Below are positions 3,288 to 20,761 of a stretch of DNA of 36,936 nt, one piece after another. The stretch is from Candidatus Bipolaricaulota bacterium. GTDB lineage: Bacteria > Bipolaricaulota > Bipolaricaulia > Bipolaricaulales > Bipolaricaulaceae. A program made the position numbers and the translations under genes. Each line of letters starts with the position of its first letter. Position 1 is the stretch's first letter. The notes beneath the pieces are model-generated. The model did no database searches. It was not told the origin of the DNA and worked only from the letters and a program-made list of their open reading frames with translations. The DNA lies in contig CALKES010000010.1 of the NCBI GenBank assembly GCA_938084715.1, positions 1 through 36,936 of the forward strand. The letters run 5' to 3'.

Positions 3288-3893
3288 ATGGCACGGAAAG
3301 CTGAGCCGAACGCGGAGCCGATGGGGGGCTGGCCGGGGATGGGGCTCACCTCGTTCATCCCCCGGCGGGTCTTCTTCACCCGGGGGGTGGGCCGGCACAA
3401 GGAGGAGCTGCGCTCCTTTGAGCTTGCCCTCCGCGACGCGGGGATCGAGAAGCTGAACCTCGTCCACGTCTCGAGCATCCTCCCCCCGGGGTGCAAGGTG
3501 ATCTCCCGCACGGAGGGCCTCAAGCAGCTCTCCCCCGGGCAGATCGTGTTCTGCGTCTTCTCCCGCTGCGCCTCGAACGAGCCCCACCGCCTGATCGCGG
3601 CCTCGGTGGGCTGCGCGATCCCCGCCGACCGAAGCGCCTACGGGTACCTCTCGGAGTACACCTCGTTTGGGAAAAAGGAGAAGCAGGCCGGGGACCACGC
3701 CGAGGACCTCGCCGCCTCGATGCTCGCCTCCACCTTGGGGATCGAGTTCGACGACGAGCTCGTCTGGGACGCGAAAAAGGAGATCTGGAAGATCTCGGGG
3801 AAGATCGTCCGGACGATGAACATTACCCAGTCCGCGGTGGTGGATAGCAAGGGCTACACCACGGTCGTCGCCGCGGCCGTTTTCCTCCCCTAG
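3288..3893 (+). CDS. pdaD: Pyruvoyl-dependent arginine decarboxylase
   Basis: Decarboxylates arginine to agmatine, the first step of this polyamine route. It is made as a proenzyme that cleaves itself between two serines, turning the second into the pyruvoyl cofactor; the site is visible as Ser62-Ser63 in [12 protein letters not shown]. Length 201 residues fits the family (archaeal forms about 165, Chlamydia about 195); the extra N-terminal 25 or so residues are charged and Pro/Gly-rich. A conserved Glu-containing NITQSAVVD region lies near the C-terminus. It starts a unit with the DHS-like gene, whose ATG follows the stop by only 2 nt. No PLP-type SpeA is seen in the window. Confidence 0.95.
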
Positions 3894-3895
3894 CC

Positions 3896-4939
3896 ATGGC
3901 CAAGAGCCCCACCAAGCAGAAGTTTCTCCGGCACCCGGTGGAGCAGCTCGATCCCACCGCGTTCAACGCCGTCCCCATCCTCCAGGCCATGGGGAAGACC
4001 GCGTTCCAAGCCCGGAACCTCGCCCGGGCGGCGGAGATCTACGACGCGATGCTCCGCGACCCGGAATGCACGATCATCCTCTGCCTCGCCGGCTCCCTGG
4101 TGAGCGCGGGGCTTGGCCGCTCGATCGCCGTCCTCCTCGAGAACCGGATGGCCGACGCCGTGGTGGCCACGGGGGCGAACATCGTGGACCAGGACTTCTT
4201 CGAGGCCCTGGGGTTCCGCCACTACCAGGGGTCCCCGGACGCCGACGACAACGAGCTCCGGGAGCTCATGATCGACCGGATCTACGACACCTACATCGAC
4301 GAGGAGGAGCTGCGGGCCTGCGACCTCACCGTGGCCGAGATCGCCGACCGCCTGCCCCCGGGGGTCTACTCCTCCCGGGAGTTCATCGCCCAGATGGGGA
4401 AGTGGCTCGTCCAGCGGGGCAAGGGGGCGGGCTCGATCACCCGGGTGGCGTACGAGAAGGGGATCCCCATCTTCTGCCCGGCGTTCTCCGACTCCAGCGC
4501 CGGCTTTGGCCTCGTCTACCACCAGTGGCACCACCCCGATCGGCACGTGGCGATCGACTCGGTGAAGGACTTCCGGGAGCTCACGCGGATCAAGATCGCC
4601 GCGAAGGAGACGGGCCTGGTGATGGTGGGGGGCGGGGTCCCCAAGAACTTCGCCCAGGACGTAGTCGTGGCGGCGGACGTGCTGGGGGTCGAGGCCCCGA
4701 TGCACAAGTACGCGATCCAGATCACGGTGGCCGACGTCCGGGACGGGGGGCTTTCGGGCTCGACCCTCAAGGAGGCGAGCTCCTGGGGCAAGGTGGCCCA
4801 AGGACTGGAGCAGATGGTGTTCTCCGAGGCCACCCTCGCCTTCCCGCTCCTTGCGAGCTACGTCTACCACCAGGGGTCGTGGCGAGCGCGGGCGGAGCGG
4901 CGGCTGGCCGACCTCCTCGCGGCCCCCGTCGAGGCGTAG
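3896..4939 (+). CDS. Deoxyhypusine synthase family protein
   Basis: Member of the NAD-dependent deoxyhypusine synthase fold, which moves an aminobutyl group from spermidine to an acceptor: a protein lysine (eIF5A/aIF5A) in eukaryotes and archaea, or a small polyamine in homospermidine-forming relatives. The 347-residue length is close to human DHS. The catalytic lysine is kept (Lys299 in SSWGKV, matching human Lys329), and NAD-site features are visible (LAGSLVSAGLG, TGANIVDQD, MVGGGVPKNF). There is no eIF5A gene in the window and bacteria carry EF-P, so the acceptor is uncertain; homospermidine synthesis, an agmatine-using variant, or protein modification are all open. Close coupling to arginine decarboxylase suggests agmatine or spermidine as donor. 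The family call is firm, the substrate is not. Confidence 0.9.
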   Translation: MAKSPTKQKFLRHPVEQLDPTAFNAVPILQAMGKTAFQARNLARAAEIYDAMLRDPECTIILCLAGSLVSAGLGRSIAVLLENRMADAVVATGANIVDQDFFEALGFRHYQGSPDADDNELRELMIDRIYDTYIDEEELRACDLTVAEIADRLPPGVYSSREFIAQMGKWLVQRGKGAGSITRVAYEKGIPIFCPAFSDSSAGFGLVYHQWHHPDRHVAIDSVKDFRELTRIKIAAKETGLVMVGGGVPKNFAQDVVVAADVLGVEAPMHKYAIQITVADVRDGGLSGSTLKEASSWGKVAQGLEQMVFSEATLAFPLLASYVYHQGSWRARAERRLADLLAAPVEA

Positions 4940-4944
4940 AGGCG

Positions 4945-4974
4945 TTGGCAGTTCTCTAGGGAACTCACTACAAT
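4945..4974 (+). promoter_or_regulatory. Sigma-70-type promoter of speD-speE-speB with embedded palindrome
   Basis: TTGGCA (4945-4950) and TACAAT (4969-4974) are separated by 18 nt. The spacer holds GTTCTCTAGGGAAC (4951-4964), an inverted repeat with 6-bp arms and one mismatch, placed where a repressor could block RNA polymerase. The promoter hexamers are good; the operator role is inference. Confidence 0.6.
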
Positions 4975-4980
4975 CGCCCC

Positions 4981-5050
4981 GCTGTACCCCGGGGGGTTCC
5001 CGGGACAAGCGTCGACATCTCACTTGGGATCGAAGCACAGGAGGTGAACG
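4981..5050 (+). promoter_or_regulatory. Structured 5' leader of speD
   Basis: About 70 nt lie between the predicted transcription start and the speD ATG, in a genome where most leaders are absent or short. Two possible hairpins can be drawn: a very GC-rich one from CCCGGG repeats (about 4987-5005) and a weaker one in which TCG...ATC pairs with GAT-CGA just before the strong AGGAGGTGA at 5039-5047. It does not match a riboswitch class that I recognise by eye. The second helix ends close to the ribosome binding site, so a role in translation control is possible but unproven. Confidence 0.35.
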
Positions 5051-5398
5051 ATGCGGGGACTCGGGAGGCAGCTCGTGGTGGAGATGTGGGACTGCGCGCG
5101 GCGGGTGGACGACCCCTCCAGGCTCCGGGCCGCCCTGGAGGAGGCCGTGCGGCGGGCGGGGGCGACCCTCATCGACGTCCAGGTGCACCCCTTCAACCCC
5201 CACGGCGCCTCGGGGATGGCGCTCCTTGCCGAGTCCCACATCTCGTTCCACACCTGGCCGGAGCTCGGATACGTCGCGTTGGACGTGTTCACCTGCGGGG
5301 AACGGGTCGAGCCGGAGCGGGCGGTGGAGGTGTTCCGGGACCTGTTTTCCCCGCGGCAGGTGAGCGTGGTCGAGATCCGGCGGGGGATCCGGCCGTGA
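5051..5398 (+). CDS. speD: S-adenosylmethionine decarboxylase proenzyme, short prokaryotic form
   Basis: Makes decarboxylated SAM, the aminopropyl donor for SpeE and BpsA. The 115-residue protein is the short class 1B form. Self-cleavage between Glu61 and Ser62 in AESHISFHTWPE would give the pyruvoyl group on Ser62; His67 and Cys82 (VFTCGER) correspond to the processing and catalytic residues of the Thermotoga enzyme. A strong AGGAGGTGA precedes the ATG. Its stop overlaps the speE GTG (GTGA), so production of donor and transferase is coupled. Confidence 0.96.
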   Translation: MRGLGRQLVVEMWDCARRVDDPSRLRAALEEAVRRAGATLIDVQVHPFNPHGASGMALLAESHISFHTWPELGYVALDVFTCGERVEPERAVEVFRDLFSPRQVSVVEIRRGIRP

Positions 5399-6240
5399 GG
5401 GAGAACTGGATCGCCGAGGACCAGGCCCCAGGGGTGCGACTCTCTTTGCGTGTTCGGGAAAGGATCCTCTCCTCCCGCACCCCTTACCAAGCCCTGGAGA
5501 TCGTGGACACGGAGGCCCTCGGCCGGGCTCTCCTCCTCGACGGGCGGATCATGGTCACCGAGCGGGACGAGGCCTTCTACCACGAGATGCTTGTTCACCC
5601 CGCCCTCCTCCGCCACCCCGCCCCCCGGAGGGTGGCCGTCGTCGGGGGCGGGGACGGCGGGGCCCTGAGGGAGGTCCTCCACCACCCCGTAGAGGAGGCG
5701 ACCTTGATCGAAATCGATCGGGACGTGATCGCCGCCTGCCGGGACCACCTTGGGGAGGTGGGCCAGGGGGCGTGGGAGGATCCCCGGGTGCGGATCGTGA
5801 TCTCCCCCGCGGAGGCGTTCCTCCCCCAGACACCGGGGGCGTTCGACGCCGTGATCGTGGACTCCACGGACCCGATCGGCCCGGGGGAGGCCCTCTTCTC
5901 GCCCGAGTTCCTCCGGGCCTGCCGCCGGGCCCTGCGGCCCGGGGGAATCGCCGCCTTCCAGGCCGGGTCCCCGTTCTACACCCCGGGGGTCCTCCGGGAC
6001 CTCGCCGCGGAGCTCCGGTCCCTGTTCCGCTCCGTGGTCCCCTACCTCGGGTTCGTCCCGAGCTACCCCTCGGGCCTTTGGGCCTACGTCCTCGCCTCCG
6101 ATGAGGCCGCCTCGGCCGAGGAGGTCGAGGCCCGGTTCCGGGCCCGGGGGCTCGCCACCCGGTACTACACCCCCCGGCTGGATCCGGGCGCGTTCGCCCT
6201 TCCGACCTTCGTCGAAGCGCTGGTCAAGGGGGACCGATGA
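5395..6240 (+). CDS. speE: Spermidine synthase family aminopropyltransferase
   Basis: Transfers an aminopropyl group from dcSAM to putrescine or, in thermophile pathways, to agmatine. The 281-residue protein has the N-terminal beta-strand domain, the dcSAM-binding VVGGGDGGA (83-90), an acidic residue in IEIDRD, and the gate/active-site motif VDSTDP (155-160) with catalytic Asp156. The residues after that site (SPAEAF) differ from the GDA motif of many spermidine synthases. The GTG start overlaps the speD stop by 4 nt; the open frame extends further upstream but only as a shadow of speD. Its stop overlaps the agmatinase ATG. Whether putrescine or agmatine is the acceptor cannot be read from sequence. 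Confidence 0.92.
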   Translation: MRENWIAEDQAPGVRLSLRVRERILSSRTPYQALEIVDTEALGRALLLDGRIMVTERDEAFYHEMLVHPALLRHPAPRRVAVVGGGDGGALREVLHHPVEEATLIEIDRDVIAACRDHLGEVGQGAWEDPRVRIVISPAEAFLPQTPGAFDAVIVDSTDPIGPGEALFSPEFLRACRRALRPGGIAAFQAGSPFYTPGVLRDLAAELRSLFRSVVPYLGFVPSYPSGLWAYVLASDEAASAEEVEARFRARGLATRYYTPRLDPGAFALPTFVEALVKGDR

Positions 6241-7049
6241 TCGGGCCGCTGCGGTTTCTGGGGCTCGACACCCCTCTCGAGCGGGCGCGGGTGGCGATCC
6301 TCGGGGTCCCGCTTGAGCGGACCGTATCCTGGCGTGGCGGACCGGCCCAGGCCCCCACGGTGATCCGCGCCGCCTCGGACTCCATCGAGCTCTACTCCCA
6401 CCTGTTCCGGTGCGACCTCCGCCCGATCGGGGTGTGCGACCTCGGGGACGTGGACCCCCACCTCCCGATGGAGGAGATGCTCGCCCTGGCCGAGCGGGAG
6501 GTGGAGCGGCTTCTTCGGTTGGGGAAGGGGGTCGTGGTCCTCGGGGGGGAGCACACGGTGGCCCTCCCCGCGGTCCGGGCCGCCTCCTCCCAGGGGCCCC
6601 TCCAGGTCGTGGCCCTCGACGCCCACACCGACCTCCGGGACGACTACGGGGGGGAGCGGGTGGCCCACGCCACGGTCCTCCGGCGGGTGGAGGAGCTCGC
6701 CTCCCGGCTCGTCATCGTTGGGGCGCGGTCGTTTGTCGGGGACGAAGTGGACGAGCCGGTGTTCGCCAAGCCAGGGGAACTCCCCTCCCGCCTCGACCCG
6801 GGGCTCCCCGTCTGGCTTACCCTCGACCTCGACGCCCTCGACCCCTCCCTCTGCCCGGGGGTCACGAACCCCGAGCCGGGGGGGCTTTCCTACCCCGAGG
6901 TGATCGAGATCTACCGGGCCCTTTCCCGGTTCCGGGTGGTGGGGATGGACCTCGTGGAGCTCGCCCCCCCGTTTGACCCCTCCGGGGTTTCGGCCGTCAC
7001 GGCGGCGAAGCTCGTCCTGGAGGGGATCGCCGCGTTCTGGGGGCGCTAG
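6237..7049 (+). CDS. speB: Agmatinase / aminopropylagmatine ureohydrolase
   Basis: Arginase-fold hydrolase that removes urea from agmatine (giving putrescine) or from N1-aminopropylagmatine (giving spermidine, as in Thermus). Binuclear Mn ligands are all present: His106 in GGEHT, Asp128/His130/Asp132 in DAHTDLRDD, and Asp197/Asp199 in LTLDLDALDP. Length 270 residues is slightly short for the family. Placement after speE, with an ATGA overlap, fits the aminopropylagmatine route. The stop codon TAG shares bases with the stop of the convergent kinase gene (CTAG), leaving no room for a terminator between the two units. Confidence 0.93.
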   Translation: MIGPLRFLGLDTPLERARVAILGVPLERTVSWRGGPAQAPTVIRAASDSIELYSHLFRCDLRPIGVCDLGDVDPHLPMEEMLALAEREVERLLRLGKGVVVLGGEHTVALPAVRAASSQGPLQVVALDAHTDLRDDYGGERVAHATVLRRVEELASRLVIVGARSFVGDEVDEPVFAKPGELPSRLDPGLPVWLTLDLDALDPSLCPGVTNPEPGGLSYPEVIEIYRALSRFRVVGMDLVELAPPFDPSGVSAVTAAKLVLEGIAAFWGR

Positions 7050-9283: not shown

Positions 9284-10903
9284 TCACCTCTCGCCGAGGG
9301 CGCGGACCGTGGCCTGGCACTGGGGGCAGCCTCCCCCGTCGAGGTGGGAGGCGAACTCCTCGGGGAAACCGGCGAGGGCGGTGCGAACGGGGAGGGCCAC
9401 CGACTGCCCCAGGGGGCACAGGGACGCGGCCCGCATCGCGTCCACAATCGTAAGCATCTGCTCCAGGACGGACCGGGACGCCCCTCCCCCCTGGAGGCGC
9501 CCGATAAGCCGCACCAGGACGTCGGTCCCGCTCCGGCAGGGGACGCACTGGCCGCACGACTCGTGGTGGAAGAACCGGAGCACGCTGCCCAGGGTGTCCA
9601 CGACGCAGGCCCGCTCGTCGAGGACGAGGACGGCCCCCGAGCCGAGGGCCGCCCCCCGCTCGCCCAGGGAGTCGAAGTCGAGCCGCGTGTCGAGCTCCCC
9701 CGGCGGGAGGAACGCCCCCGCCGCCCCGCCGATGAGGACGCCCTGGAGGGTCCGCCCCGGGAGGAGCCCGCCCCCGAGCTCGTACACCAGGACCCGCAGC
9801 GGGGTTCCCATCTCCACTTCCACAAGCCCGGGGTACCGGACGCTCCCCAGGACCGTGTACACCTTCGTCCCGGGACAGGTGGGGGTCCCGAGGGTCCGGT
9901 ACCAGGCCGGGCCCCGGCGGACGATGTCCGGGACGTTGGCCAGGGTCTCCACGTTGTTGACGACGGTCGGCTTCCCCCACAGGCCCGCGGTCACGGGGTA
10001 GGGGGGCCGGATCCGGGGCCAGCCCCGCTTCCCCTCCAGGGATTCGAGAAGCGCCGTCTCCTCCCCGCACACGTAGGCTCCCGCCCCGGGCCGGACCTCG
10101 ACGCGGAACGAGAAGTCGGTGTCGAACACCCGCTCCCCAAGGATCCCCAAGCCCTCCGCGTCGGCGATCGCCTTTCGGACCCGGCTGATGGAAAGGGCGT
10201 ACTCCCCGCGGATGTAGAGGATCCCCAGGTGGGCCCCCACGGCGTAGCCGGCGAGGGCCATCCCCTCCAGCAGCTTGTGGGGGTCCCCCTCGAGGATGAG
10301 GCGGTCCTTGAACGTCCCCGGCTCCCCCTCGTCGGCGTTGCAGACGACGTACCGCTCGCCCGGGGGGGCGCTCCGCACCGCGGACCACTTGATCCCGGTG
10401 GGGAACCCCGCCCCGCCCCGGCCGCGGAGGCCGGAGCGCTTGACGAGCTCGATCACGTCCTCGGGCCGCAGCTCCGTGACCGCCCGGCCGAGGGCCTCGT
10501 ACCCCCCCTGGGCGATGTACTCCTCGATCCGCTCCGGGTCGATCACCCCGCAGTTGGCCAGCACGACCCGGGTCTGGCGGGCGAGGAGCTCCCCGGGCCG
10601 GGCCACGGGGGCCGCGGTGGGGAGGCGCAGCCGGGCCACGGGCCGGCCCTTGAGGAGGTGCTCCTCGGCGATCTCCCGGCAGTCGGCGGGGGTGACCTCG
10701 GCGTAGTAGACCCCGTCGGGCTGGACCGCGATCACCACCCCCCGGCCGGAGATCCCCAAGGTCCCCGTCTCCACCACCTGGACCTCGCCCGAAAGCCCAA
10801 GCTCCTCCACCGCCGCCCGCAGGGCCGAGAGGACAGCGTCCACTCCCGCGAGGCGGGCCTCGTCGTCCACTCCCACGAGGACGTGGACTCGCGCGAGGGT
10901 CAT
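9284..10903 (-). CDS. Second NuoF/HydB-like flavin subunit with degenerate N-terminal domain
   Basis: Soluble FMN- and NAD(P)H-binding subunit paired with the NuoE-like gene just upstream. The 539-residue protein keeps [13 protein letters not shown] and CNADEGEPG (nucleotide and FMN binding), [14 protein letters not shown], and the [4Fe-4S] motif ESCGQCVPCR with a later Cys in CPLGQ. It differs from the full HydB at 11355-13148 in two ways. The thioredoxin-like N-terminal domain has lost all four [2Fe-2S] cysteines (C to G, A, T and S by alignment with HydB), and the C-terminal double-[4Fe-4S] ferredoxin domain is missing, leaving only a CPQC stub. The ATG overlaps the stop of the NuoE-like gene. 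The electron partner is unknown. Confidence 0.9.
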   Translation of the reverse strand: MTLARVHVLVGVDDEARLAGVDAVLSALRAAVEELGLSGEVQVVETGTLGISGRGVVIAVQPDGVYYAEVTPADCREIAEEHLLKGRPVARLRLPTAAPVARPGELLARQTRVVLANCGVIDPERIEEYIAQGGYEALGRAVTELRPEDVIELVKRSGLRGRGGAGFPTGIKWSAVRSAPPGERYVVCNADEGEPGTFKDRLILEGDPHKLLEGMALAGYAVGAHLGILYIRGEYALSISRVRKAIADAEGLGILGERVFDTDFSFRVEVRPGAGAYVCGEETALLESLEGKRGWPRIRPPYPVTAGLWGKPTVVNNVETLANVPDIVRRGPAWYRTLGTPTCPGTKVYTVLGSVRYPGLVEVEMGTPLRVLVYELGGGLLPGRTLQGVLIGGAAGAFLPPGELDTRLDFDSLGERGAALGSGAVLVLDERACVVDTLGSVLRFFHHESCGQCVPCRSGTDVLVRLIGRLQGGGASRSVLEQMLTIVDAMRAASLCPLGQSVALPVRTALAGFPEEFASHLDGGGCPQCQATVRALGER

Positions 10904-11358
10904 CGCCCCTCCCGGTACCGGGCGATCGCGGCCCGGACCTTCTCCGGGGTCAGGTTCCCCACGACCTCGTCGTCGACCATCATCGCCGGGGCGACCCCGC
11001 AGGCGCCAAGGCAGCTCGTGAACTCGAGGGTGAACAGGCCATCGGGCGTCGTTTCCCCAACGTCCACCCCGAGGGCCCGCCGCAGCTCGTCGAGGGCCGA
11101 CCAGGCCCCGGCGACGTGGCAGTGGGGGGAGACGCAGAGCCGGACGATGTGCCGGCCCCGAGGCCTCAGGCTGAACATGGAGTAAAACGTGACCGCGTCC
11201 CGGACCCGGGACAGGGGGAGCCCGACGTGGCGGGCGGCGAGCTCCAGGTCCTCGGGGAGGAGGTACTGGCCGGGGTTCGTCCCCTGGAGGTCGTGGAGGA
11301 GGGCCAGCAGGGCCTCCGGCGCGGGTGGATAGCGGGCGAGGACGGCTTCCTTCGTCAT
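10900..11358 (-). CDS. Second NuoE/HydC-like [2Fe-2S] subunit
   Basis: Thioredoxin-fold [2Fe-2S] protein of the NuoE family, about 152 residues, that normally docks on a NuoF-type flavin subunit. The cluster ligands are intact: CVSPHC (C-x4-C) and CLGAC (C-x3-C). An N-terminal helical region precedes the fold. The gene overlaps HydB upstream (ATGA) and the second NuoF-like gene downstream (ATGA). It is a divergent paralogue of the HydC at 17137-17610, so the operon has two NuoE-NuoF pairs. The ATG at 11358 was chosen because an upstream in-frame start would run far into HydB. Confidence 0.92.
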
Positions 11359-13148
11359 CGGGCCTCCTCCCGGGGGAGCTTCCGCACCGCCCCAAACGGG
11401 CAGGCGTCGAAGCACGCCCCGCAGCGGATGCAGAGCTCATCCACGATCCGGTACGGGCCCTGCCGGGGAGCCCCCTGGGCCGCCCCGGTGGGACAGGCCC
11501 GCCGGCAGGCGTCGCAGGACCGACAAAGTTCAGGTTCGACCACGTACCGGACCAGGTTCGGACACACCCCGGCCGGGCAGGAGCGGCGGGCGATGTGGGC
11601 CTCGTACTCGTCCCGGAAGTAGCGGAGGGTGGAGAGGACCGGGTTGGGGGCCGTCTGCCCAAGCCCACACAGCGCGGTCGCCTTCATGGCCGCCCCGATC
11701 TCCTCCAGGCGGGGAAGGTCCTCGGGGGTCCCCTCCCCCTTCACGATCCGGTCCAGGATCCCGAGCATCATCTGGGTTCCGACCCGGCACGGGACGCATT
11801 TGCCGCACGACTCATCCGCGGTGAACTCGAGGAAGAACCGGGCCATGTTGACCATGCAGGTGGAGCTATCGAGGACGATCAGGCCGCCCGAGCCCATGAT
11901 CGCCCCGTGCTGGGTGAGGGAGTCGTAGTCGACGGGGACGTCGAGGAGGGAGGCGGGAAGGCACCCCCCCGAGGGGCCACCGATCTGGACCGCCTTGAAC
12001 TCCCGCCCCTCGGGGACCCCGCCCCCGATCTCGAACACGAGCTCCCGGAGGGTGATCCCCATCGGGACCTCGACAAGGCCGGTATTCCGGACGTTCCCGG
12101 CCAGGGCAAACACCTTCGTCCCCTTGCTCTTCTCCGTCCCCACCGAGGCGAAGGCCTCGGGGCCCCCGAGGAGGATGTGGCGGACGTTGGCGAACGTCTC
12201 GACGTTGTTGATGAGGGTAGGCCGGCCCCACAGCCCGCTCGTGGCCGGGTAGGGTGGGCGCGGCCGGGGCTCCCCCCGCCGACCCTCGATCGAGGCGATG
12301 AGGGCCGTCTCCTCCCCGCAGACGAACGCCCCGGCCCCGATCCGGATCTGGACGTCAAACGAGAAGTCGGTGTCGAAGATGCCCGGCCCGAGGACCCCGA
12401 GCTTGCGGGCCTGGGCGAGGGCGACTTCAAGCCGGCGAATGGCCAGGGGGTACTCGGCCCGGACGTAGACGAAACCCTGGCCCGCCCCGACCGCGTAGGC
12501 GGCGATGGCCATCCCCTCCAAGACCGCGTGGGGATCCCCCTCGAGGACGGCCCGGTCCATGAACGCCCCGGGGTCGCCCTCGTCGGCGTTGCACACGACG
12601 TACCGGGGCGGGGGTCCCCCGGCCCGGACGAGCTCCCACTTCTTTCCCGTGGGAAACCCCGCTCCCCCCCGGCCGCGGAGGCCAGATCGCTTCACGGCCT
12701 CGATCACGTCCTCGGGCCGCATCCCGGTCAGGGCCCGCCCGAGGGCCTCGTAGCCCCCGAGGGCGATGTACTCCTCGATCCGCTCCGGGTCGATGACCCC
12801 GCAGTTGGCGAGGACGACCTTCTTTTGGCGGGCGAAGAACGGGATCTCCTGGGGCTTGGGCGCCGCCCCGGCCCAGAGGAGCCGCTTCACCGGCCGCCCT
12901 TTGAGGAAGTGCTCCTCGACGATCTCCGGGGCGTCCTCGGGCCGGACCCGGACGTAGAACGTCCCCTCGGGGTAGACGAGGAGGACCGGCCCGAGCTCGC
13001 AGGGCCCCATGCACCCCGTTTCCACAAACTGGACCTCGGGGAGGAGGTCGTGGGCCGCGGTCGCCTCGAGGAGGGCCCGCTTCACCCGCTCGCTTCCCGA
13101 CGACTGGCAGGCCGTCCCCGAGCAGACGAGGACCTGGATCCGCCTCAC
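11355..13148 (-). CDS. hydB: HydB: NAD(H)/FMN-binding subunit of bifurcating-type hydrogenase
   Basis: Flavin subunit where NAD(H), ferredoxin and the hydrogenase chain would meet. The 597 residues comprise an N-terminal thioredoxin-like [2Fe-2S] domain (CSGTAC, then TGCMGPC), the NuoF core with [13 protein letters not shown] and CNADEGDPG, the [4Fe-4S] motif [10 protein letters not shown], and a C-terminal ferredoxin domain with [17 protein letters not shown] and [11 protein letters not shown]. That C-terminal domain is typical of electron-bifurcating HydB and is absent from ordinary HoxF. The GTG start overlaps the protease stop; the stop overlaps the second NuoE-like ATG. The bifurcating role is inferred from domain layout. 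Confidence 0.94.
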
Positions 13149-13570
13149 GACGCCTCCCCGGTGAGGTAGGCGCGGAGCCTTCCCACAAGGGCCTCGGCGG
13201 CCCGCCGGGTGCGGGGGGACAGGCCTTCCCCGAGCGAGAAGTCCCGGGCGGGGATTGTGACAAGCCACGCCTCGGGGGCCCGGCCAAACAGCGCCTCCGC
13301 CCAGGCGAGGATCCCCCGGGGGGTGAAGGCGTGGGCCAGGGCGGGGCGGTCCCCGGGCCGGATCCGCTCCCAGCGGACGGGCCCGGCCCCCGGCCGGGCG
13401 TCCACGAAGATCACGAGGTCGGCCACCGCCACCTGGGGGATGAGCTCAGGGGTGAGGTCCTGGGCCCCCAGGACCTTCACCTCGTCCGTGCTCGGGAGCC
13501 GCCCGGCCACCCATAGCCCGACCCCGTCGTCCCGGCGGAGGGGGTGCCCAAGCCCGATCACGAGGATCAT
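13145..13570 (-). CDS. hoxW: [NiFe] hydrogenase maturation protease
   Basis: Endopeptidase that clips the C-terminal tail from the large subunit after nickel insertion. The 141-residue protein starts with the family signature [13 protein letters not shown], has a nickel-binding acidic residue in that motif and a second one in FVDARPG, and the usual length of about 150. It lies between the large subunit and hydB with 4-nt overlaps on both sides, so its substrate is almost surely the adjacent HydL. Confidence 0.93.
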
Positions 13571-15009
13571 GGGGCCCGCACCACCTCGTCCAGGACCTCC
13601 CCCCCAGGGCCGAGGAGAACGACCCGGAGGGGCATCGCCCCCGCGGCGTGGACGGAGCAGGAGAGGCAGGGATCGTAGGCGCGGATCCCCCCCTCGAGCC
13701 GGTTGAGGAGACCCTCGGGGATCTTCTTCTTCCCGTTCAAGTACCGCGCCGCAATCTGGGCGACGGTCCGGTTCATGGCGAGGTTGTTGTGGCCGGTGGA
13801 GACGATGAGGTTCGCCTTGACGATCACCCCGGTCTCATCGACCTCGTAGTGGTGGAGGAGGGTTCCCCGGGGGGCCTCGTGAACCCCGACCCCGACAAGC
13901 TCGTTCACCCCCGCCTCGGCCCGGACCCGGGGGGAGAGAACCTCCGGGTCCTCGAGGTACTGCCCGACCCGTTCCAGGGCGGCCACGATCTCAATCAGCC
14001 GCGCCCAGTGGTAGTGGAACGAGCTGGTGACCGCCTTCCCGTCGGCGCTTTTCCGGAACCGACCCAGGGCCTCGTCGGCCAGGGGCGTCCCGATCCGATC
14101 GCAGCAGTTGAGGCGGGCCAGCGGCCCCACCCGGTACATCCCCTCGGGGTACCCCCGGGGGCGCCAGTACGGGAACTTGAGGTAGCTCCAGCCCTCCACG
14201 GCCTCGCCGAGATACTCGTCGTACCGCGACGGATCCAGGCCGTCGGCAACGATCTTCCGGTCGCTGTCCACAAACCGGAGCCTCCCGTCGTGGTGCTCCC
14301 ACAGGCCGTCGGGGGTGACGAGGGACATGAACAGGGAGGGAAAGTTCCCGAACGTCTCCACCTCCTCCGCCCACGCGGGAACGGTCTTCTCGTAGAGATG
14401 GAGGGCGTCTTGGGCGATCCGCCGGGCCTCGGGGAGCTTGGCGGCGAGCCGGTCCCGGGCCTCGGGGGAGAGGGGCGTCCGGACGCCACCGGGGACGGCC
14501 CACGCCGGGTGGACCCGCCGGTCCCCGAGGGCGGCGATGACCTCCTGCCCGAACGCTCGGAGCCGGATTCCATCGAGAGCAAGCTGGGGGTTCTCGGCGG
14601 CAAGCCCAAACACGTTCCGCTTTCCTGGCTCGGCGTCCCAGCCAAGGAGGAGGTCGGGGCTGGCGAGGTGGAAGAAGGACAGGGCGTGGGACTGGATGTA
14701 CTGGCCGCAGTTCATGAGCCGGCGGAGCTTGTCCGCGGGGCGGGGCGGCCGAACGGCGAGGATCGCGTCCCCGGCCTTGGCCGAGGCCAGGAGGTGGGAC
14801 ACCGGGCAGATCCCGCAGATCCGGGCGGTGATCCCCGGCATCTCCCACACCGTGCGGCCCTGGCAGAACCGCTCGAACCCCCGGGCCTCGGTGACGTGGA
14901 ACCGGGCCTCCCTCACCTTCCCTCCCCCGTCGAGGTGGATGGTGATGAGCCCATGGCCCTCAACGCGCGTCACGGGGATCTTGATCTCACGCACGGTCTC
15001 CCCCTTCAT
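13567..15009 (-). CDS. hydL: [NiFe] hydrogenase large subunit (HoxH/HydL-like)
   Basis: Carries the Ni-Fe active site that interconverts H2 with protons and electrons. The 480-residue protein has both cysteine motifs: [10 protein letters not shown] (Cys65, Cys68) and DPCLSCSVH (Cys448, Cys451, His454). A 26-residue tail follows His454 and would be removed by the neighbouring protease. Features match soluble group 3 enzymes (HoxH and the HydL of bifurcating HydABCSL). The ATG overlaps the stop of the small subunit, and the stop overlaps the protease start. Confidence 0.96.
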
Positions 15010-15533
15010 CCGAACCGGAGGTCGGCCCCGACGAGCTCCGGCCGCCGGCCGGCGAGGAGCCCCTGGAGGAACTTCCAGATCCGGTCCGCCGACGGCGGGC
15101 AGCCGGGGACAAAGCGGTCCACCCTCACCACCGCGTGGAGGGGCAGGGCCTGGGGGAGGAGCTTGGGGACCGCCCCCTCCTCGAGCCCCGGGACCTCGCC
15201 CTCCCCGTACACCGCCCGGAGGACCTCCTCCCGGGGGATCGGGTTCCGGAGCGAGGGGACGTTCCCCGTCACCGCACAGTCCCCGAACGCGACGACGAGT
15301 TTCGTCTTCTCCCGCATCTCCCGGAGGAGGTGGAGGTGCTCGGTGTTCCCCACCGCCCCCTCCACGAGGAGGACGTCCACGTCGTCGGGGTACTCCTTGA
15401 TGTCCACGATTGGGGAGTAGACAAGCTCGGCTTTACCCGCGAGCTCGATCAGCCGCTCGTCGAGGTCGAGGAACGACATGTGGCACCCCGAGCAGCCCGA
15501 GAACCAGACGGTGGCCAGTCGCACCTTAGGCAC
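15006..15533 (-). CDS. hydS: [NiFe] hydrogenase small subunit (HoxY/HydS-like)
   Basis: Short small subunit of about 175 residues carrying only the proximal [4Fe-4S] cluster, as in HoxY. Ligands are seen in [20 protein letters not shown] and PGCPPSADR. It passes electrons between the Ni-Fe site and HydA. The GTG start has AAAGGAGG just upstream and overlaps the hydA stop by 8 nt. There is no Tat signal, fitting a cytoplasmic enzyme. Confidence 0.95.
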
Positions 15534-16227
15534 GGGGCCTCCTTTCCGTCACCTCGGCCAGGATCTCCGGGCGCTTGACCTGCTCCGAAGTGGCCTTCCC
15601 CTTCTCAAACAGCGCCCCCACGGGGCAGGCTTGGACGCACTTGCCACACCCGGTGCAGGTGGGGGACTGCGCCCAGGGTCCCCCGAGGTCGGGCTCGACG
15701 AGGGTCTCCACCCCCCGGCCGGAGAAGCCCCAGGTGAACGCCCCCTCGACCTCGGCGCAGGCCCGGACGCAGCGGCCGCACAGGACGCACCGGTTGTGGT
15801 CGAGGCCAAACTTGGGGTGGCTCGCGTCCAGCGGCAGGGCCGGGAACCGGTACGGAAAGGTGACGTGGTCCATCCCAAGCTCGGTCGCGAGGTCCTGGAG
15901 CTCGCAGTGCCCGCTGGAGACGCAGAACGCGCAGATATGGTTCCGCTCAGCAAACAGGAGCTCGAGGATCGTCCGCCGGAGGGCGGCCAGCTTCTCGGAG
16001 TGGGCGACGACGTCCAGGCCCTCTTGGGCCGGGGTCGCGCACGAGGGAACGAGCCTCCCGTTCCAGTTGCGAATCTCCACCAGGCACAGCCGGCACGCCC
16101 CCCGGGGGGAGAGGGACTCGAGGAAGCAGAGGGTGGGGATGCGGATCCCGGCCCGCCGGGCCGCCTCGAGGATCGTCTCCCCAGGCTCGGCCTGGACCGG
16201 CGTATCGTCGATCCTAAGCTGAATCAC
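15526..16227 (-). CDS. hydA: HydA/HoxU-like iron-sulfur subunit
   Basis: Electron-transfer subunit linking the hydrogenase pair to the flavin modules. Its 233 residues match HoxU: an N-terminal [2Fe-2S] domain (CFLE, GACRLC, SCATP), the NuoG-type cluster region [16 protein letters not shown] in the HoxU form, and two [4Fe-4S] motifs ([11 protein letters not shown] and [11 protein letters not shown]). It lacks the H-cluster domain of [FeFe] HydA, so the catalytic role falls to HydL. The GTG start overlaps the upstream stop (GTGA). Confidence 0.95.
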
Positions 16228-16592
16228 CCCTTCACCTCCCGGACGGCGACAACCCGCTCGGCGAGGGGGCGGCCGTTGACCACGTGCTCGGCCACGATCC
16301 GCCGGGCCAGGGCCTCGTCCACCTCCCCGTAGATCGTGATCCGCTCCGGCTCGTGGACCTCGACGATCGGTTCCTGGGCCGCGAGGCCCTTCTCCCCGGT
16401 CTGGGTCACGGTCACGTCCCGGAGGTTCCTCCGGGCGACCTCGTCGAGGATCGCCCGGAGGGTCGCCCGGGCGCCGGCGGCGATCCCTGATGTGCCCATC
16501 CCCACCACGATCTTGACCCGGGTGGGGCCCCCGCGGAGGCGGAGGTCCGCCTCGGCCCGCTCCCGGATCTTGCGGAGCTCCTCCAGCTTCAC
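16224..16592 (-). CDS. Thioredoxin-like ferredoxin-family protein without cluster cysteines
   Basis: Small protein of 122 residues with the fold of the [2Fe-2S] thioredoxin-like proteins found in HydABC operons. The backbone pattern is clear (VVGMGTSGIAAGAR, then TQTGEKGLAAQEPIVEV), but positions that hold cysteine ligands elsewhere are Gly, Ser, Glu and Ala, and I see no cysteine in the whole protein. It should not bind a cluster in the usual way and may be structural or regulatory. GTGA overlaps join it to the ATPase gene before and hydA after. Whether the loss is lineage-wide needs an alignment. Confidence 0.85.
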   Translation of the reverse strand: MKLEELRKIRERAEADLRLRGGPTRVKIVVGMGTSGIAAGARATLRAILDEVARRNLRDVTVTQTGEKGLAAQEPIVEVHEPERITIYGEVDEALARRIVAEHVVNGRPLAERVVAVREVKG

Positions 16593-17140
16593 CGTTCCTC
16601 CTTCAATCCCACGTGGGCCAGACCCTCCTCCAGCTCCCGCTCCACGAACGCGAGCACATCGGGGTGGGTGAGCGGAACCTCCCCGAGGTGCTCCCGGAGC
16701 TCACGGGTGGAAAGGGTCCACGCCGCCCGATCATCCCTGAGCTCGACGGTGAACTCAACCTCGGGGTGGGTGGCGAGGAGGGGGACGAGGGTCCCGGGGA
16801 GGTCCCCCAGGGGCGGCCGGTCGGGGTGGTCCCACCCCAGCCGGGCCCAGACCCTTGTCCCTCCCCCCTCCCTTCCCTCGACCCGGCACTCCCCGCCCGT
16901 CGCCTCGGCGGTCTGGACAAGGAGAGGGAGCCCAAGCCCGACCCGGGCCCCGGGCTTTGTGGAGAAGAAGGGGTCCGTGACCCGAGAGAGGAGGTCCTCC
17001 GGGATCCCCGCCCCGTCGTCGACCACCTCGAGGAGGAGGCTGTCCCCCCTCCGGGCGAGGGAGATCCCGATCGAGCGGGCGCCGGCCCGGAGGGAGTTTT
17101 GGACGAGGTCCGCCAGGTGCATGGCGAGGTCGGCGATCAC
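16589..17140 (-). CDS. GHKL-type ATPase (histidine-kinase fold) of hydrogenase operon
   Basis: Protein of 183 residues that is mostly a GHKL ATP-binding domain: N box HLADLVQNSLRAGA, G1 box DDGAGIP, G2 box GLGLPLL. It has no sensor region and no phospho-acceptor histidine domain before the N box, and about 80 residues of unknown type follow. Genes of this shape usually sit beside hydC in [FeFe] HydABC operons, where their role is not settled; a regulatory role is plausible. The GTG start overlaps the hydC stop, and the stop overlaps the next GTG. Confidence 0.85.
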   Translation of the reverse strand: MIADLAMHLADLVQNSLRAGARSIGISLARRGDSLLLEVVDDGAGIPEDLLSRVTDPFFSTKPGARVGLGLPLLVQTAEATGGECRVEGREGGGTRVWARLGWDHPDRPPLGDLPGTLVPLLATHPEVEFTVELRDDRAAWTLSTRELREHLGEVPLTHPDVLAFVERELEEGLAHVGLKEER

Positions 17141-17610
17141 CCCGCGCTCCCCCGGATCCGGCGCAGGATCCCCTTGACCTTCTTCGGGTCGAGTTTCCCG
17201 TACACCTCGTCATCCACCATCATCACCGGGGCCAGGCCGCACGCCCCGAGGCAGCGAACTCCCTCGACGGTGAACAGGCCGTCGGCCGAGGTCCCCCCCA
17301 GGCCCACCCCGAGCTCCTCCTCGATCGCCTTGAGGACGGACTCCGCCCCCCGGACGTGGCACGCCGTCCCCAGGCACAGCCGCAGGGTGTGCTTACCCAC
17401 CGGGCTGGTGCGGAAGAAGTGGTAGAAGGTGACGACGCCCCGGACCTGGGAGGGGGGGACCCCCAGCGCCCGGGCCACCGTGGCCTGGGCCTCGGGGGGG
17501 ATGTAGCCGAGGGAGCTCTGGACCCGGTGGAGGGCCTGGATGAGCTCGGAGGGCTTTCCGGCAAACGGCTTGACGAGTTCGGCAACCTTGGACTCTACGG
17601 TGGTCGTCAA
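17137..17610 (-). CDS. hydC: HydC/HoxE-like NuoE-family [2Fe-2S] subunit
   Basis: Partner of HydB in the flavin module. The 157-residue protein has an N-terminal helical bundle (HRVQSSLGYIPPEAQ region) and the thioredoxin-like fold with ligands CLGTAC and CLGAC. The start is a TTG at 17610 with an excellent AAGGAGGA just upstream; it shares TTGA with the stop of the PHP gene. No in-frame ATG or GTG fits better. Confidence 0.94.
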   Translation of the reverse strand: MTTTVESKVAELVKPFAGKPSELIQALHRVQSSLGYIPPEAQATVARALGVPPSQVRGVVTFYHFFRTSPVGKHTLRLCLGTACHVRGAESVLKAIEEELGVGLGGTSADGLFTVEGVRCLGACGLAPVMMVDDEVYGKLDPKKVKGILRRIRGSAG

Positions 17611-18362
17611 CGGTCCTCCTTGATCTCGGGGCCGGGGCGGACGCGGCGCCCCCCCTGGCCCAACACGGCCAGCCGAAGCTCCCCCAGGCTCGGCTCGGCG
17701 AGGAAGAGCTCCGTCCACGCCCTCCCGATCTCCGCCGGGTAGTGGGCGTCCGAGCCCCGGAGGAGGGCCTTCCCGGCGAGGGCCGGCCAGCTCTGGAGGG
17801 CGGCGGAGACGGGGGTCCAGGGGGCGATCTCCACCGCCGGCCACTCCCCGGGGGGGAAGAGCCCGAGGACGGCGAGGAGCCCCCCCGGAAGTCGGTCCAC
17901 GTGGGCGGGGACGGCGAGCCCCCCCAGGGCCTCGACCCGCCGCACCACCTCGGCCAGCGGGAGGGCAACCGGGGAGAGGAGGAGTCGCTCCTCCCGCCGG
18001 ACGATCTCCCCTTCCTCGTCGACCACGACCTGGTCCCCGAACAGCTCGGGGTCGCAGGGGACCTCGGGAAGGACGGCATGGAGCTCCGCCTGGAGCTCTA
18101 GCGCGGGTTCTTCGTCGGCAAAGTACGCCAGGACCTCGACCTCTTCGGCGGCCTGAATTTCCATGCCCATAAGGACGGCCGGACGTCCGGCGGCCAGCCG
18201 CCGGACGTAGGGGCCGTTCTCGGCGGCATTGTGGTCGCAGACGGCGATGAGATCAAGCCCGGCGCGGCGGGCCTCGGCCACGATCCGGGCCGGGGAGAGC
18301 TCCAGGCTCCCGCAGGGGGAGAGGGCGGAGTGGATGTGGAGGTCGGCCCGCCACCACCTCAT
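17607..18362 (-). CDS. PHP-domain phosphoesterase-like protein
   Basis: Predicted metal-dependent phosphoesterase of 251 residues. Motifs of the PHP fold are visible: DLHIHSALSPCG at the N-terminus, VCDHN about residue 40, PAHVDR in the middle and GSDAHY near the end. Relatives often occur in HydABC-type hydrogenase operons next to DRTGG proteins, with no known substrate. The ATG overlaps the stop of the second DRTGG gene. Confidence 0.85.
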   Translation of the reverse strand: MRWWRADLHIHSALSPCGSLELSPARIVAEARRAGLDLIAVCDHNAAENGPYVRRLAAGRPAVLMGMEIQAAEEVEVLAYFADEEPALELQAELHAVLPEVPCDPELFGDQVVVDEEGEIVRREERLLLSPVALPLAEVVRRVEALGGLAVPAHVDRLPGGLLAVLGLFPPGEWPAVEIAPWTPVSAALQSWPALAGKALLRGSDAHYPAEIGRAWTELFLAEPSLGELRLAVLGQGGRRVRPGPEIKEDR

Positions 18363-18691
18363 GGATGGAGGAGACGGTGGAGGCGCCCGGCGACCTCGAA
18401 CGCGGGCTCGGAGGAGAGGAACAGGTTCACCCCCTCCGCCGCGGCCCGGGCCACCACGTCGGGGCTCGGCCGGTTGCCCCGGGCGAACACGACCCCCGCG
18501 AGATCCCGGAGCTTGGCCACAGCGACGACGTTGAGGTGGCGCTGGTGGGTGATCCAGAGGTCCCCGGGCCGGGCGTGGGCCAGCACGTCGGAGAGGAGGT
18601 CGGAGCAGTACCCGCCCCCCACCTCCCGGGTGAGATCCCCGGTGGCGAGGGCCTCCAGTCCCAATTCGGCGACGACGCGCGCGAGCTTCAT
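18359..18691 (-). CDS. DRTGG-domain protein (second copy)
   Basis: Small 110-residue protein of the DRTGG family, a fold thought to bind nucleotides or act as a regulator. It starts MKLARVVAELGLEALATGD and contains YCSDLLSDVLAHARPGDLW, the same pattern as its paralogue at 19122-19520. AGGAGG before the ATG overlaps the TAG stop of the upstream ATPase gene. The function is unknown. Confidence 0.8.
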   Translation of the reverse strand: MKLARVVAELGLEALATGDLTREVGGGYCSDLLSDVLAHARPGDLWITHQRHLNVVAVAKLRDLAGVVFARGNRPSPDVVARAAAEGVNLFLSSEPAFEVAGRLHRLLHP

Positions 18692-18700
18692 CGGCTCCTC

Positions 18701-19159
18701 CTAGAAGAACGGGACCCCAAGGAGGATCGTGGCCCGGACCACCGTGCCCTTCCCCACCCGGGATCGGATCTTAAACAGGTCGGAGTTCTGCTCCATGTTG
18801 GTGATCCCCAAGCCCGCCCCGAACCCCAGCTCCCGGGCCCAGTCCGGGGCGGTGGAGTAGCCGGGCTGGCTGGCGAGGTCCACGTCGGCGATCCCGGGGC
18901 CCCGGTCGGAGAAGAGGAGCTCCACCCGGTCCTCCTTGACGAGGAGGATGATCCGCCCCCCCTCGGAGTAGAGGACCATGTTCATCTCCCCCTCGAAGCA
19001 GACCACGCTCGCCCGCCGGACGACGTCGGGGCTCATCCCCAGGGCGAGGAGCTCCCTCCGGACCTCGGTGGAGACGGTCCCGGCCCGGTCGAGGTCCCGG
19101 GGGGCGACCTCGTAGATCCGCCTAAGCCGCAGGGCGGGCGGGGCCTGAGGGGAGGTCAA
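18701..19159 (-). CDS. Anti-sigma-factor-like ATP-binding protein
   Basis: RsbW/SpoIIAB-like GHKL ATPase of 152 residues. Its ATP-site motifs are visible: FEGEMNMVLYS (N box), DRGPGIAD and GFGAGLGITNM. In other genomes such proteins stand between DRTGG genes in hydrogenase operons and are thought to regulate. I take a TTG start at 19159, which overlaps the first DRTGG gene by 38 nt and has no clear Shine-Dalgarno sequence; homologues have about this N-terminus, but the start is uncertain. Confidence 0.82.
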   Translation of the reverse strand: MTSPQAPPALRLRRIYEVAPRDLDRAGTVSTEVRRELLALGMSPDVVRRASVVCFEGEMNMVLYSEGGRIILLVKEDRVELLFSDRGPGIADVDLASQPGYSTAPDWARELGFGAGLGITNMEQNSDLFKIRSRVGKGTVVRATILLGVPFF

Positions 19160-19520
19160 GGCGGAACCCCTTGCGTTTCGCGGGGCGGAGCCCGGCCTGG
19201 TAGAGAAGGCCGCAGGTCTCGTACATGTCCCTGGAGGCGGCGAGGAGGGGGATCCCTGCCCCGGCGGCGTACTCCACCGTGGCCTGGGTCGGGTACTTCC
19301 CCCGGACGAACAGGACCGCCCCCATGTTCATCACCTCCGCCACCCGCACCACCTGGGGGGTGGTCATCCCGGTGATGAGGAGGACCCCTTCCTCCTGGAC
19401 CATGGCCAGGACGTCGGAGAGGAGGTCGGCGGCAAACGCCCGGGTCACCTCCCGCTCGGCGTGCTCCGCCCCGGTGACGAACTCCGCCCCAAGGAGCCCT
19501 GCGAGGTCGGCGAGCTTCAT
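19122..19520 (-). CDS. DRTGG-domain protein (first copy)
   Basis: A 132-residue DRTGG-family protein with FAADLLSDVLAMVQ and a segment (VRGKYPTQATVEYA) like the ones in regulators of hydrogenase operons. A strong AGGAGG overlaps the stop of apgM and lies close before the ATG. It is a paralogue of the gene at 18359-18691 and is separated from it by the anti-sigma-like ATPase. The role is unknown; a nucleotide-sensing regulator is a guess from the family. Confidence 0.8.
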   Translation of the reverse strand: MKLADLAGLLGAEFVTGAEHAEREVTRAFAADLLSDVLAMVQEEGVLLITGMTTPQVVRVAEVMNMGAVLFVRGKYPTQATVEYAAGAGIPLLAASRDMYETCGLLYQAGLRPAKRKGFRLDLPSGPARPAA

Positions 19521-19528
19521 CGTTCCTC

Positions 19529-20761
19529 CTAGGAGCCGAACTTGGGCCCGAGGTCGCAGTACCCGAGGAGCTGGGGGACGAGCCGGCCCGTAAAGCGGCC
19601 GAGCCCCCCTTCCCCCGCGGCCCGTTCCCCAAACGCCCGGACCCGGTCCGGCCGGACCGCGGGGCCCACAAACAGGGCCGGGACGGGGTCGGCCGTGTGC
19701 TCCTTCACCCCCGGGGGCGTGGTGTGGTCCCCCGAGACGCAGAGGTGGACCTTGTCCAACGGGAGCCTCGCGACCAGGGTCCCGAAGAACTCCCGATCGA
19801 TCCGCTCGATGAAGGCCCGCTTGGCCTCGGCGTCCCCGTCGTGGGAGGCGTTGTCGGTGCCCTTGATGTGGACGAAGACGAGCTCGGCCCGGTCGAGGGC
19901 GGCGAGGGCGGCGTCGGCCTTGGCCCGGAGGTCGGTCTTGAGGTCCCCCGTGGCCCCGGGGACGTCGAGGACGGTGAGGCCAGCGAGCTTGGCCACGCCC
20001 TTGTACAGGGCCCCGCCGGCGACGCAGACCCCCCGAATCCCGTACTCGACGGTGATCGGCCGGAGGTGGGGCATGACCGCCGCCCCCCGGAGGAGGACCG
20101 CGTTGGCAGGCCTCTCCCCCCGCCGGATCCGCTCCCGGTTGAACGGGTGGTCTTGGAGGACCTCGTGGGCCCGCCGGGTGAACAGGTTCACCGCATCGGC
20201 GGTCCTCCCCGCCGCCGGCTCCAGGGGCCGGCACCGCTCCACGGGCTTCCCCTCCTTCCGGGGGTCCGTGTCGGTGACCGCCGGGGAGGCCCCGGCCCCC
20301 CGGAGGACGAGGGCCCCCCGGTGCTCGGTGGAGACGCGGAACAGAAGCTCGAGCCCGAACTCGTGGAGGTCGATCCCGGCGATCGCCCCCTCGAGGGGCT
20401 TCCCATCGGGGAGCCGCCCCGCCCGCCGGTCCACGACCACGAGCTCCCCACCCCGCTCCTCCACCGTGGCGAAGTTGGCGCGGAAGCAGACGTCCCCGCC
20501 CCGGACGTCGAGGCCGATCCCCAGGGCCTCGAACGCCCCCCGGCCCGTGTAGACCCTGAACGGGTCGTAGCCGAAGATGGAGAGGTGGGAGGTATCGGAG
20601 CCGGGGCGGACGCCGGGCCCCACGGGGTCCATAAGCCCCACGGCCCCCCGGGCGGCGAGCTCATCCAGGACCGGGGTCGCCGCGGCCTCGAGGCAGGTGG
20701 AACCCCCGAGGTCCGTCGGCCGGCCCCCCAGCCCGTCCAAGATCACCAGGATCCCCGGCAT
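19529..20761 (-). CDS. apgM: 2,3-bisphosphoglycerate-independent phosphoglycerate mutase, archaeal type
   Basis: Interconverts 3- and 2-phosphoglycerate in glycolysis and gluconeogenesis. The 410-residue protein is of the alkaline-phosphatase superfamily ApgM type: ILDGLGGRP at the N-terminus (metal Asp), SDTSHLSIFGYDP with the phospho-acceptor Ser, and later HIKGTDNASHDGD and SGDHTTPP metal motifs. The ATG comes 1 nt after the stop of the TatT-like gene, so cotranscription is likely. Its presence before hydrogenase genes is unusual but may simply tie carbon flow to H2 metabolism. Confidence 0.94.
   Translation of the reverse strand: MPGILVILDGLGGRPTDLGGSTCLEAAATPVLDELAARGAVGLMDPVGPGVRPGSDTSHLSIFGYDPFRVYTGRGAFEALGIGLDVRGGDVCFRANFATVEERGGELVVVDRRAGRLPDGKPLEGAIAGIDLHEFGLELLFRVSTEHRGALVLRGAGASPAVTDTDPRKEGKPVERCRPLEPAAGRTADAVNLFTRRAHEVLQDHPFNRERIRRGERPANAVLLRGAAVMPHLRPITVEYGIRGVCVAGGALYKGVAKLAGLTVLDVPGATGDLKTDLRAKADAALAALDRAELVFVHIKGTDNASHDGDAEAKRAFIERIDREFFGTLVARLPLDKVHLCVSGDHTTPPGVKEHTADPVPALFVGPAVRPDRVRAFGERAAGEGGLGRFTGRLVPQLLGYCDLGPKFGS

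Follow-up and report, generated by a model that had tools for sequence, protein, structure and literature searches.

The 36,936-base contig CALKES010000010.1 of a Candidatus Bipolaricaulota bacterium (hereafter the window, meaning the whole contig) carries, at positions 16589-19520 of its minus strand, five regulator-like genes around the gene for HydC, a subunit of a bifurcating hydrogenase. These genes encode two DRTGG proteins, two GHKL ATPases (GHKL1 and GHKL2) and a PHP phosphoesterase, in the place, strand and order described in an earlier reading of the bare sequence (the sequence-only reading). As judged from gene neighbourhoods and HydB trees, the set is no leftover of an iron-only hydrogenase; it accompanies one type of bifurcating HydBC core, which bears HydD, irrespective of the catalytic part. 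We favour, with a probability of roughly 0.55, the interpretation that the five genes form a dedicated nucleotide- or redox-sensing kinase-phosphatase module that would control HydD-type bifurcating complexes with any catalytic module. The set, with HydC and HydD, is laid out as follows.

19122..19520, minus strand: DRTGG1, 132 amino acids, first gene of the set; PF07085; AlphaFold model (predicted local distance difference test score, pLDDT, 90) matching 2ioj and the CBS-DRTGG structure 3l2b.
18701..19159, minus strand: GHKL1, RsbW/SpoIIAB-like ATPase, here without CBS domains; PF02518 and PF13581; SpoIIAB is the best solved relative; the TTG start is uncertain.
18359..18691, minus strand: DRTGG2, 110 amino acids, a DRTGG1 paralogue; PF07085 at 25.0 bits, 0.2 bits under the cut-off; invariant D-L-x-S motif in common with DRTGG1.
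17607..18362, minus strand: PHP phosphoesterase, 251 amino acids; PHP_C above cut-off; invariant metal ligands; profile relatives EndoQ and TM0559.
17137..17610, minus strand: HydC (BfuC), thioredoxin-like [2Fe-2S] protein, between PHP and GHKL2; PF01257 (1.5e-51).
16589..17140, minus strand: GHKL2, kinase-type ATP-binding domain plus a small C-terminal domain; PF02518 (HATPase_c) only; model pLDDT 91.
16224..16592, minus strand: HydD, 122 amino acids, cluster cysteines lost; no Pfam match, assigned by a home-made profile and the cysteine pattern across loci.

A scan of named genomes with a GHKL1 alignment returned 283 relatives, of which the best 80 were kept and their neighbourhoods mapped with home-made profiles. 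(The [FeFe] side comprises six loci of this survey, with Bacillota represented by published operons of Halanaerobium, C. thermocellum and Thermoanaerobacter.) Among these best 80 of 283 relatives, the order DRTGG-GHKL1-DRTGG-PHP, with GHKL2, HydC, HydD and HydB close by, spans Bipolaricaulota, Caldifarciminota, Planctomycetota, Acidobacteriota, Aquificota, Cloacimonadota, Nitrospirota, Spirochaetota, Bacteroidota, KSB1, Sumerlaeota, Thermodesulfobacteriota and others. Because it recurs in about 30 Bipolaricaulota genomes as well as in other phyla, the order is not a matter of chance. About 30 Bipolaricaulota genomes have [NiFe] HydSL as the catalytic partner of the set. The partner is [FeFe] HydA in L081, L084 and the Spirochaetota loci L181, L185, L188 and L191, the formate dehydrogenase FdhA in L041, L104 and L176, and HdrA in L043, L044, L046, L083, L092, L094, L097, L098 and L128. 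In HydB trees, [FeFe] Caldifarciminota sequences are nested within the [NiFe] clade of Bipolaricaulota, and L041, which has FdhA, is the partner of a [NiFe] locus in the tree. Set-bearing HydBs changed catalytic partner at least seven times, as against six gains or losses of the set and eight changes of HydD in the tree of all rows, which argues that the set follows the HydD-type core rather than the active site. The sequence-only reading had held the set to be independent of the type of active site, and in this it was right. It had also called the genes an [FeFe] set carried by a [NiFe] operon; the set does occur with [FeFe] operons, but the label is wrong, [NiFe] being the usual partner in Bipolaricaulota. 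(Note that in four Spirochaetota loci, L112, L119, L132 and L174, HydC, the set, HydD, HydB and a short HydA stand together with no catalytic gene adjacent.)

For comparison, HydB loci without the set were taken from the same genomes as the set loci. HydD lies near 37 of 40 set-linked HydBs and near 5 of 23 others (Fisher test, 1e-8, uncorrected for kinship), and several of the latter belong to genomes with the set at another place. The loci without the set, most of which also lack HydD, include the second HydB of the window genome (L133) and Fdh-, Nuo- and Nfn-like operons. Thus, on the evidence of gene content, the set marks one HydBC subtype, the HydD-bearing one, and other HydBCs in the same genomes are mostly without set and HydD. 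The proposal of the sequence-only reading that the set serves the bifurcating flavin unit therefore holds for HydD-type HydBC but not for bifurcating units in general, since HydBCs without HydD, that of L133 included, do without the set.

The association extends to whole genomes. A HydB-family match was found in 42 of 42 Bipolaricaulota genomes with the PHP of the set and in 37 of 58 without it (100 genomes; Fisher test, 2e-6), and HydB in 25 of 25 Spirochaetota genomes with this PHP as against 48 of 105 without it (130 genomes; 1e-7), both again uncorrected for kinship. Moreover, among genomes in which GHKL1 is unlinked from HydBC, 14 of 15 hold a HydB-type gene elsewhere, the exception being a Chloroflexota draft. 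The quartet of DRTGG, GHKL1, DRTGG and PHP lies away from the HydBC operon in many Spirochaetota, in Nitrospirota and in Chloroflexota, and the distance seen in the first two of these phyla argues that the link is genomic and functional, not strictly positional. It had been proposed that the link would not be specific if the set were regularly found without HydBC-type genes; this is so for the gene neighbourhood but not for the genomes. In Spirochaetota, GHKL2 remains with HydC and HydD where the quartet is divergent or elsewhere (for example L181, L185 and L191). Some Spirochaetota (L183, L184 and L186) have an insert of about 2.4 kb within the set; that of L184 (10729-12816), located between DRTGG and GHKL1, is a gene of methyl-accepting chemotaxis type.

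The proteins have the anatomy of regulators. SpoIIAB is the top match of the GHKL1 profile among solved structures, and the ExxxN and DxGPGI boxes of GHKL1 (E45, N49 and D74-G78) are invariant across 17 relatives, so that the fold and ATP boxes of the SpoIIAB/RsbW kinases are both present. PHP retains a complete phosphoesterase motif, its metal ligands (HxH, DHN, E68, H154 and SDAH) being invariant in the family alignment, and phosphatase or nuclease activity is predicted. The DRTGG1 model matches AF1212 (2ioj) and the CBS-DRTGG part of a pyrophosphatase (3l2b), and its Pfam score is above the cut-off; the two DRTGG subtypes share D32, L33, S35 and T50 as invariant residues. (Matches of DRTGG to designed Pizza proteins in the Protein Data Bank were weak and were rejected as repeat noise.) The GHKL2 model matches, in part only, the CA domains of histidine kinases and the N-termini of MutL proteins. 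The cluster cysteines of HydD are lost in the [NiFe] clade, the window included, and in some [FeFe] Spirochaetota (L181, L185 and L191); relatives retain three or four of them.

Relatives of the set carry further features of signalling systems. In most other phyla GHKL1 bears a tandem CBS pair, a known adenine-nucleotide sensor. GHKL1 of L188 is fused to a sensory, H-cluster-like Fe_hyd_lg_C domain and an iron-sulfur (FeS) domain, and L109 has a stand-alone gene of this sensory H-cluster-like kind, placed between GHKL1 and DRTGG2 and next to an HdrA-type core. PHP and GHKL2 form a single protein in Phycisphaerae (L094). A gene resembling that of Rex, the NADH-responsive repressor, heads the quartet of L181, divergent from [FeFe] HydABC. 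In Nitrospirota a HAMP kinase and an NtrC-type regulator precede the set, a receiver domain follows it (fused to GHKL2 in L123), and a separate HydC-HydD-HydB-FdhA operon encodes a HydC with a receiver domain of its own. A sigma-54 type promoter heads that operon in 4 of 4 readable loci, and 435 kb of Nitrospirota loci, scanned on both strands, contain just six sites of this type; because the four loci are related, this evidence amounts to few events. Together, the CBS, sensory H-cluster, receiver, Rex, NtrC and sigma-54 features argue for signal transduction toward the HydC/HydD core or its expression. (The first gene of the same Nitrospirota operon, at 11928-12710 in L153 and likewise in L154, L156 and L157, encodes a receiver fused to a GCV_H-like, lipoyl protein, domain.) Two candidates for further links were rejected: the long HydC of Hdr-type loci has a flavin/ferredoxin-like N-terminus and is not a receiver fusion, such fusions being confined to the Fdh-type operons of Nitrospirota, and the quartet next to RseC genes in L178 and L180 does not mark an Rnf operon, its neighbours being RuvA, thioesterase and integrase genes.

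The anatomy of the set, its conserved catalytic residues, its partner-independent association, its tie to HydD and its signalling-type fusions and neighbours are established here; the ligand, the kinase and phosphatase activities, the phospho-target and the direction of control are what we infer. The DRTGG proteins, joined in relatives by the CBS pair or the sensory H-cluster domain that GHKL1 carries there, would sense an adenine or nicotinamide nucleotide or an Fe-S redox state. GHKL1, as a SpoIIAB/RsbW-like ATPase, would work as a kinase, and PHP may take off the phosphate or destroy a nucleotide signal. GHKL2, which keeps its place by HydC and HydD even where the quartet is elsewhere, would relay the state to the HydC/HydD core or its expression. 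A more direct arrangement, in which GHKL1 or GHKL2 and PHP set the phosphorylation of HydC/HydD-linked targets by energy charge or redox state and so gate bifurcation independently of the catalytic module, seems doubtful to us; its targets would be the receiver-HydC in Nitrospirota and free-standing proteins elsewhere.

Several observations weigh against a signalling module of this kind. The co-occurrence statistics, as given above, take no account of kinship. GHKL2 has, in Pfam or in its model, no phospho-acceptor domain (HisKA/DHp) with a histidine such as a two-component histidine kinase has, and the MutL-like ATPases that it also resembles are not kinases. Checks of the operon and the genome found in the window genome no CBS, receiver-HydC or Rex elements of the kind seen in relatives (five receiver-domain matches lie elsewhere in it); the window's version of the set is thus the plainest, and its input and output are deduced from relatives. 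Finally, the purified enzyme of Acetomicrobium mobile lacks HisK and HydD (PMC8880783), which also fits a role in maturation. It is because of this absence that assembly or maturation of the HydBC(D) core is the main rival: the GHKL proteins would be Hsp90/MutL-like ATPases, HydD a scaffold, and PHP and DRTGG would handle or check a nucleotide cofactor. The MutL matches of GHKL2, its position next to HydC and HydD, and the view taken of HydD and HisK, which are missing from the A. mobile holoenzyme and are presumed to serve maturation and/or regulation (PMC8880783), all speak for such machinery. Yet the CBS, sensory-hydrogenase, receiver and Rex/NtrC links are features of signalling, the quartet is often unlinked from HydBC, and HydBC enzymes without HydD do without the quartet; we regard maturation as possible, though well short of probable.

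Classical partner-switching, in which GHKL1 as an anti-sigma factor would bind a sigma factor until released by a phosphorylated antagonist, would fit the kinship of GHKL1 to SpoIIAB, the six sigma70 region-2 genes of the genome and the extracytoplasmic function (ECF) sigma gene that precedes the set in L177. However, the draft genome, which is 96% complete, encodes no STAS protein (anti-anti-sigma, PF01740), which makes switching of the SpoIIAB style unlikely here, and Pfam showed no sigma gene beside the set in any other neighbourhood examined. Least probable is that the set is a passive inheritance from an ancestral [FeFe] operon, without a current role beside [NiFe]: its presence in [FeFe] operons, both in the loci surveyed and in Halanaerobium, accords with such an origin, but the catalytic residues of GHKL1 and PHP are intact, about 30 [NiFe] genomes retain the gene order, and the HydBs of the [FeFe] Caldifarciminota fall inside the [NiFe] clade.

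The window is a contig of 71% GC from a draft genome of 1.38 Mb. Its minus-strand gene order is iPGM, DRTGG1, GHKL1, DRTGG2, PHP, HydC, GHKL2, HydD, HydA, HydS, HydL, HydP, HydB, HydC2 and HydB2. Neighbours in this series abut or overlap (PHP starts at 18362 and DRTGG2 stops at 18359, for example), as expected for one operon, and clear AGGAGG sites precede several of the gene starts. The remaining genes of the series are these.

19529..20761, minus strand: iPGM-type phosphoglycerate mutase, directly upstream of the set; PF10143; upstream of GHKL1 in 41 loci.
15526..16227, minus strand: HydA (BfuA) without an H-cluster domain; Fer2_4, NADH-G_4Fe-4S_3 and Fer4 only.
15006..15533, minus strand: HydS, [NiFe] small subunit; PF01058.
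13567..15009, minus strand: HydL, [NiFe] large subunit; PF00374; RICGIC and DPCLSC in the translation.
13145..13570, minus strand: HydP, putative [NiFe] maturation protease; no Pfam match; conserved after HydL in related loci and named by position (compare A. mobile hydP).
11355..13150, minus strand: HydB (BfuB), with a flavin mononucleotide (FMN) domain, an N-terminal [2Fe-2S] and two C-terminal [4Fe-4S] clusters; PF01512, PF10589, Fer4 twice and PF01257; exact start not fixed.
10900..11415, minus strand: HydC2, second HydC paralogue; PF01257.
9284..10960, minus strand: HydB2, second HydB paralogue, which lacks the C-terminal 2x[4Fe-4S]; PF01512 and PF10589; separate tree clade; exact start not fixed.

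The RICGIC and DPCLSC motifs of HydL identify the catalytic unit as [NiFe]. HydA lacks the Fe_hyd_lg_C domain that defines [FeFe] group A3 HydABC, and no H-cluster protein is encoded in the operon or across the draft genome; HydL motifs, Pfam and the genome scan thus bear out the sequence-only reading on both points. With an HydA lacking the H-cluster, an HydB with the C-terminal [4Fe-4S] pair, HydC, HydS and HydL, the enzyme is by gene content of the electron-bifurcating NiFe-HydABCSL type, and is predicted to couple the reduction of NAD+ and ferredoxin by H2.

The glycolytic iPGM gene stands directly upstream of the set in the window and in about 40 related loci, possibly a tie between glycolytic flux and the hydrogenase; in L039 (genome G094) the PHP family of the set has a further member (10902-11642), situated between iPGM and the set. 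The HydC2-HydB2 pair (window 9284-11415; also L081, L084, L041 and L037) is a feature of almost every [NiFe] operon of Bipolaricaulota and of the [FeFe] Caldifarciminota operons. Although it lacks the C-terminal 2x[4Fe-4S], HydB2, which forms its own clade, retains the FMN-site and N3-type cysteine motifs. Elsewhere in the window (3288-7049), genes that on reading alone look like those of a polyamine pathway would encode a pyruvoyl arginine decarboxylase, a deoxyhypusine synthase, a spermidine synthase and an agmatinase.

HydBC-type bifurcating enzymes set the balance of NADH, ferredoxin and H2 or formate in anaerobes, and their control is little known. A module that is kept with one core subtype through changes of partner, that has variable sensors and, in one lineage, a receiver-HydC, directs attention to the core, rather than the active site, as the point of control; HydD and the set together provide a sequence marker that divides HydBC complexes into two classes. 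Kinase and phosphatase genes by [FeFe] HydABC (PMC3492117, PMC4237134), [NiFe] HydABCSL with HydD, HydP and HisK (PMC8880783) and exchangeable third-substrate modules on BfuBC (PMC9304861) have been published. No treatment of the whole set or of its HydD tie was found in the literature searched, subscription papers lying outside the search. By family name, no paper was found that brings hydrogenase, DRTGG and PHP together, and the sole paper found with a DRTGG domain and hydrogenase deals with a D. vulgaris lactate gene.

Among the known systems close to the window operon is NiFe-HydABCSL of A. mobile (PMC8880783), which likewise has an HydA without H-cluster, HydB, HydC and [NiFe] SL, with hydD, hydP and hisK in the operon; whereas the text of that paper names only HydD, HydP and HisK as extras, the window adds two DRTGG proteins, GHKL1, PHP and a second HydC-HydB pair. 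Bacillota [FeFe] HydABC operons likewise have NuoE, histidine kinase, PHP and anti-sigma-like genes by HydB (Halanaerobium Halsa_1862-1871, PMC4237134; C. thermocellum, PMC3492117, PMC3561251), but their HydA has an H-cluster and a sensory [FeFe] protein is often encoded next to it; the window has neither. The BfuABC family (PMC9304861) shares the BfuB/BfuC core with exchangeable third-substrate modules; the accessory regulatory genes, uncoloured in the maps of that paper, here mark the HydD subtype. GHKL1 has the fold and ATP boxes of the SpoIIAB/RsbW anti-sigma kinases, yet it has no STAS partner in the window genome and its relatives carry CBS pairs. Similarly, the DRTGG proteins share the fold of the regulatory region of the CBS-DRTGG pyrophosphatase (3l2b/3l31), with CBS domains present in the sets of relatives, but those of the window are free-standing and lie beside a GHKL ATPase, not a pyrophosphatase.

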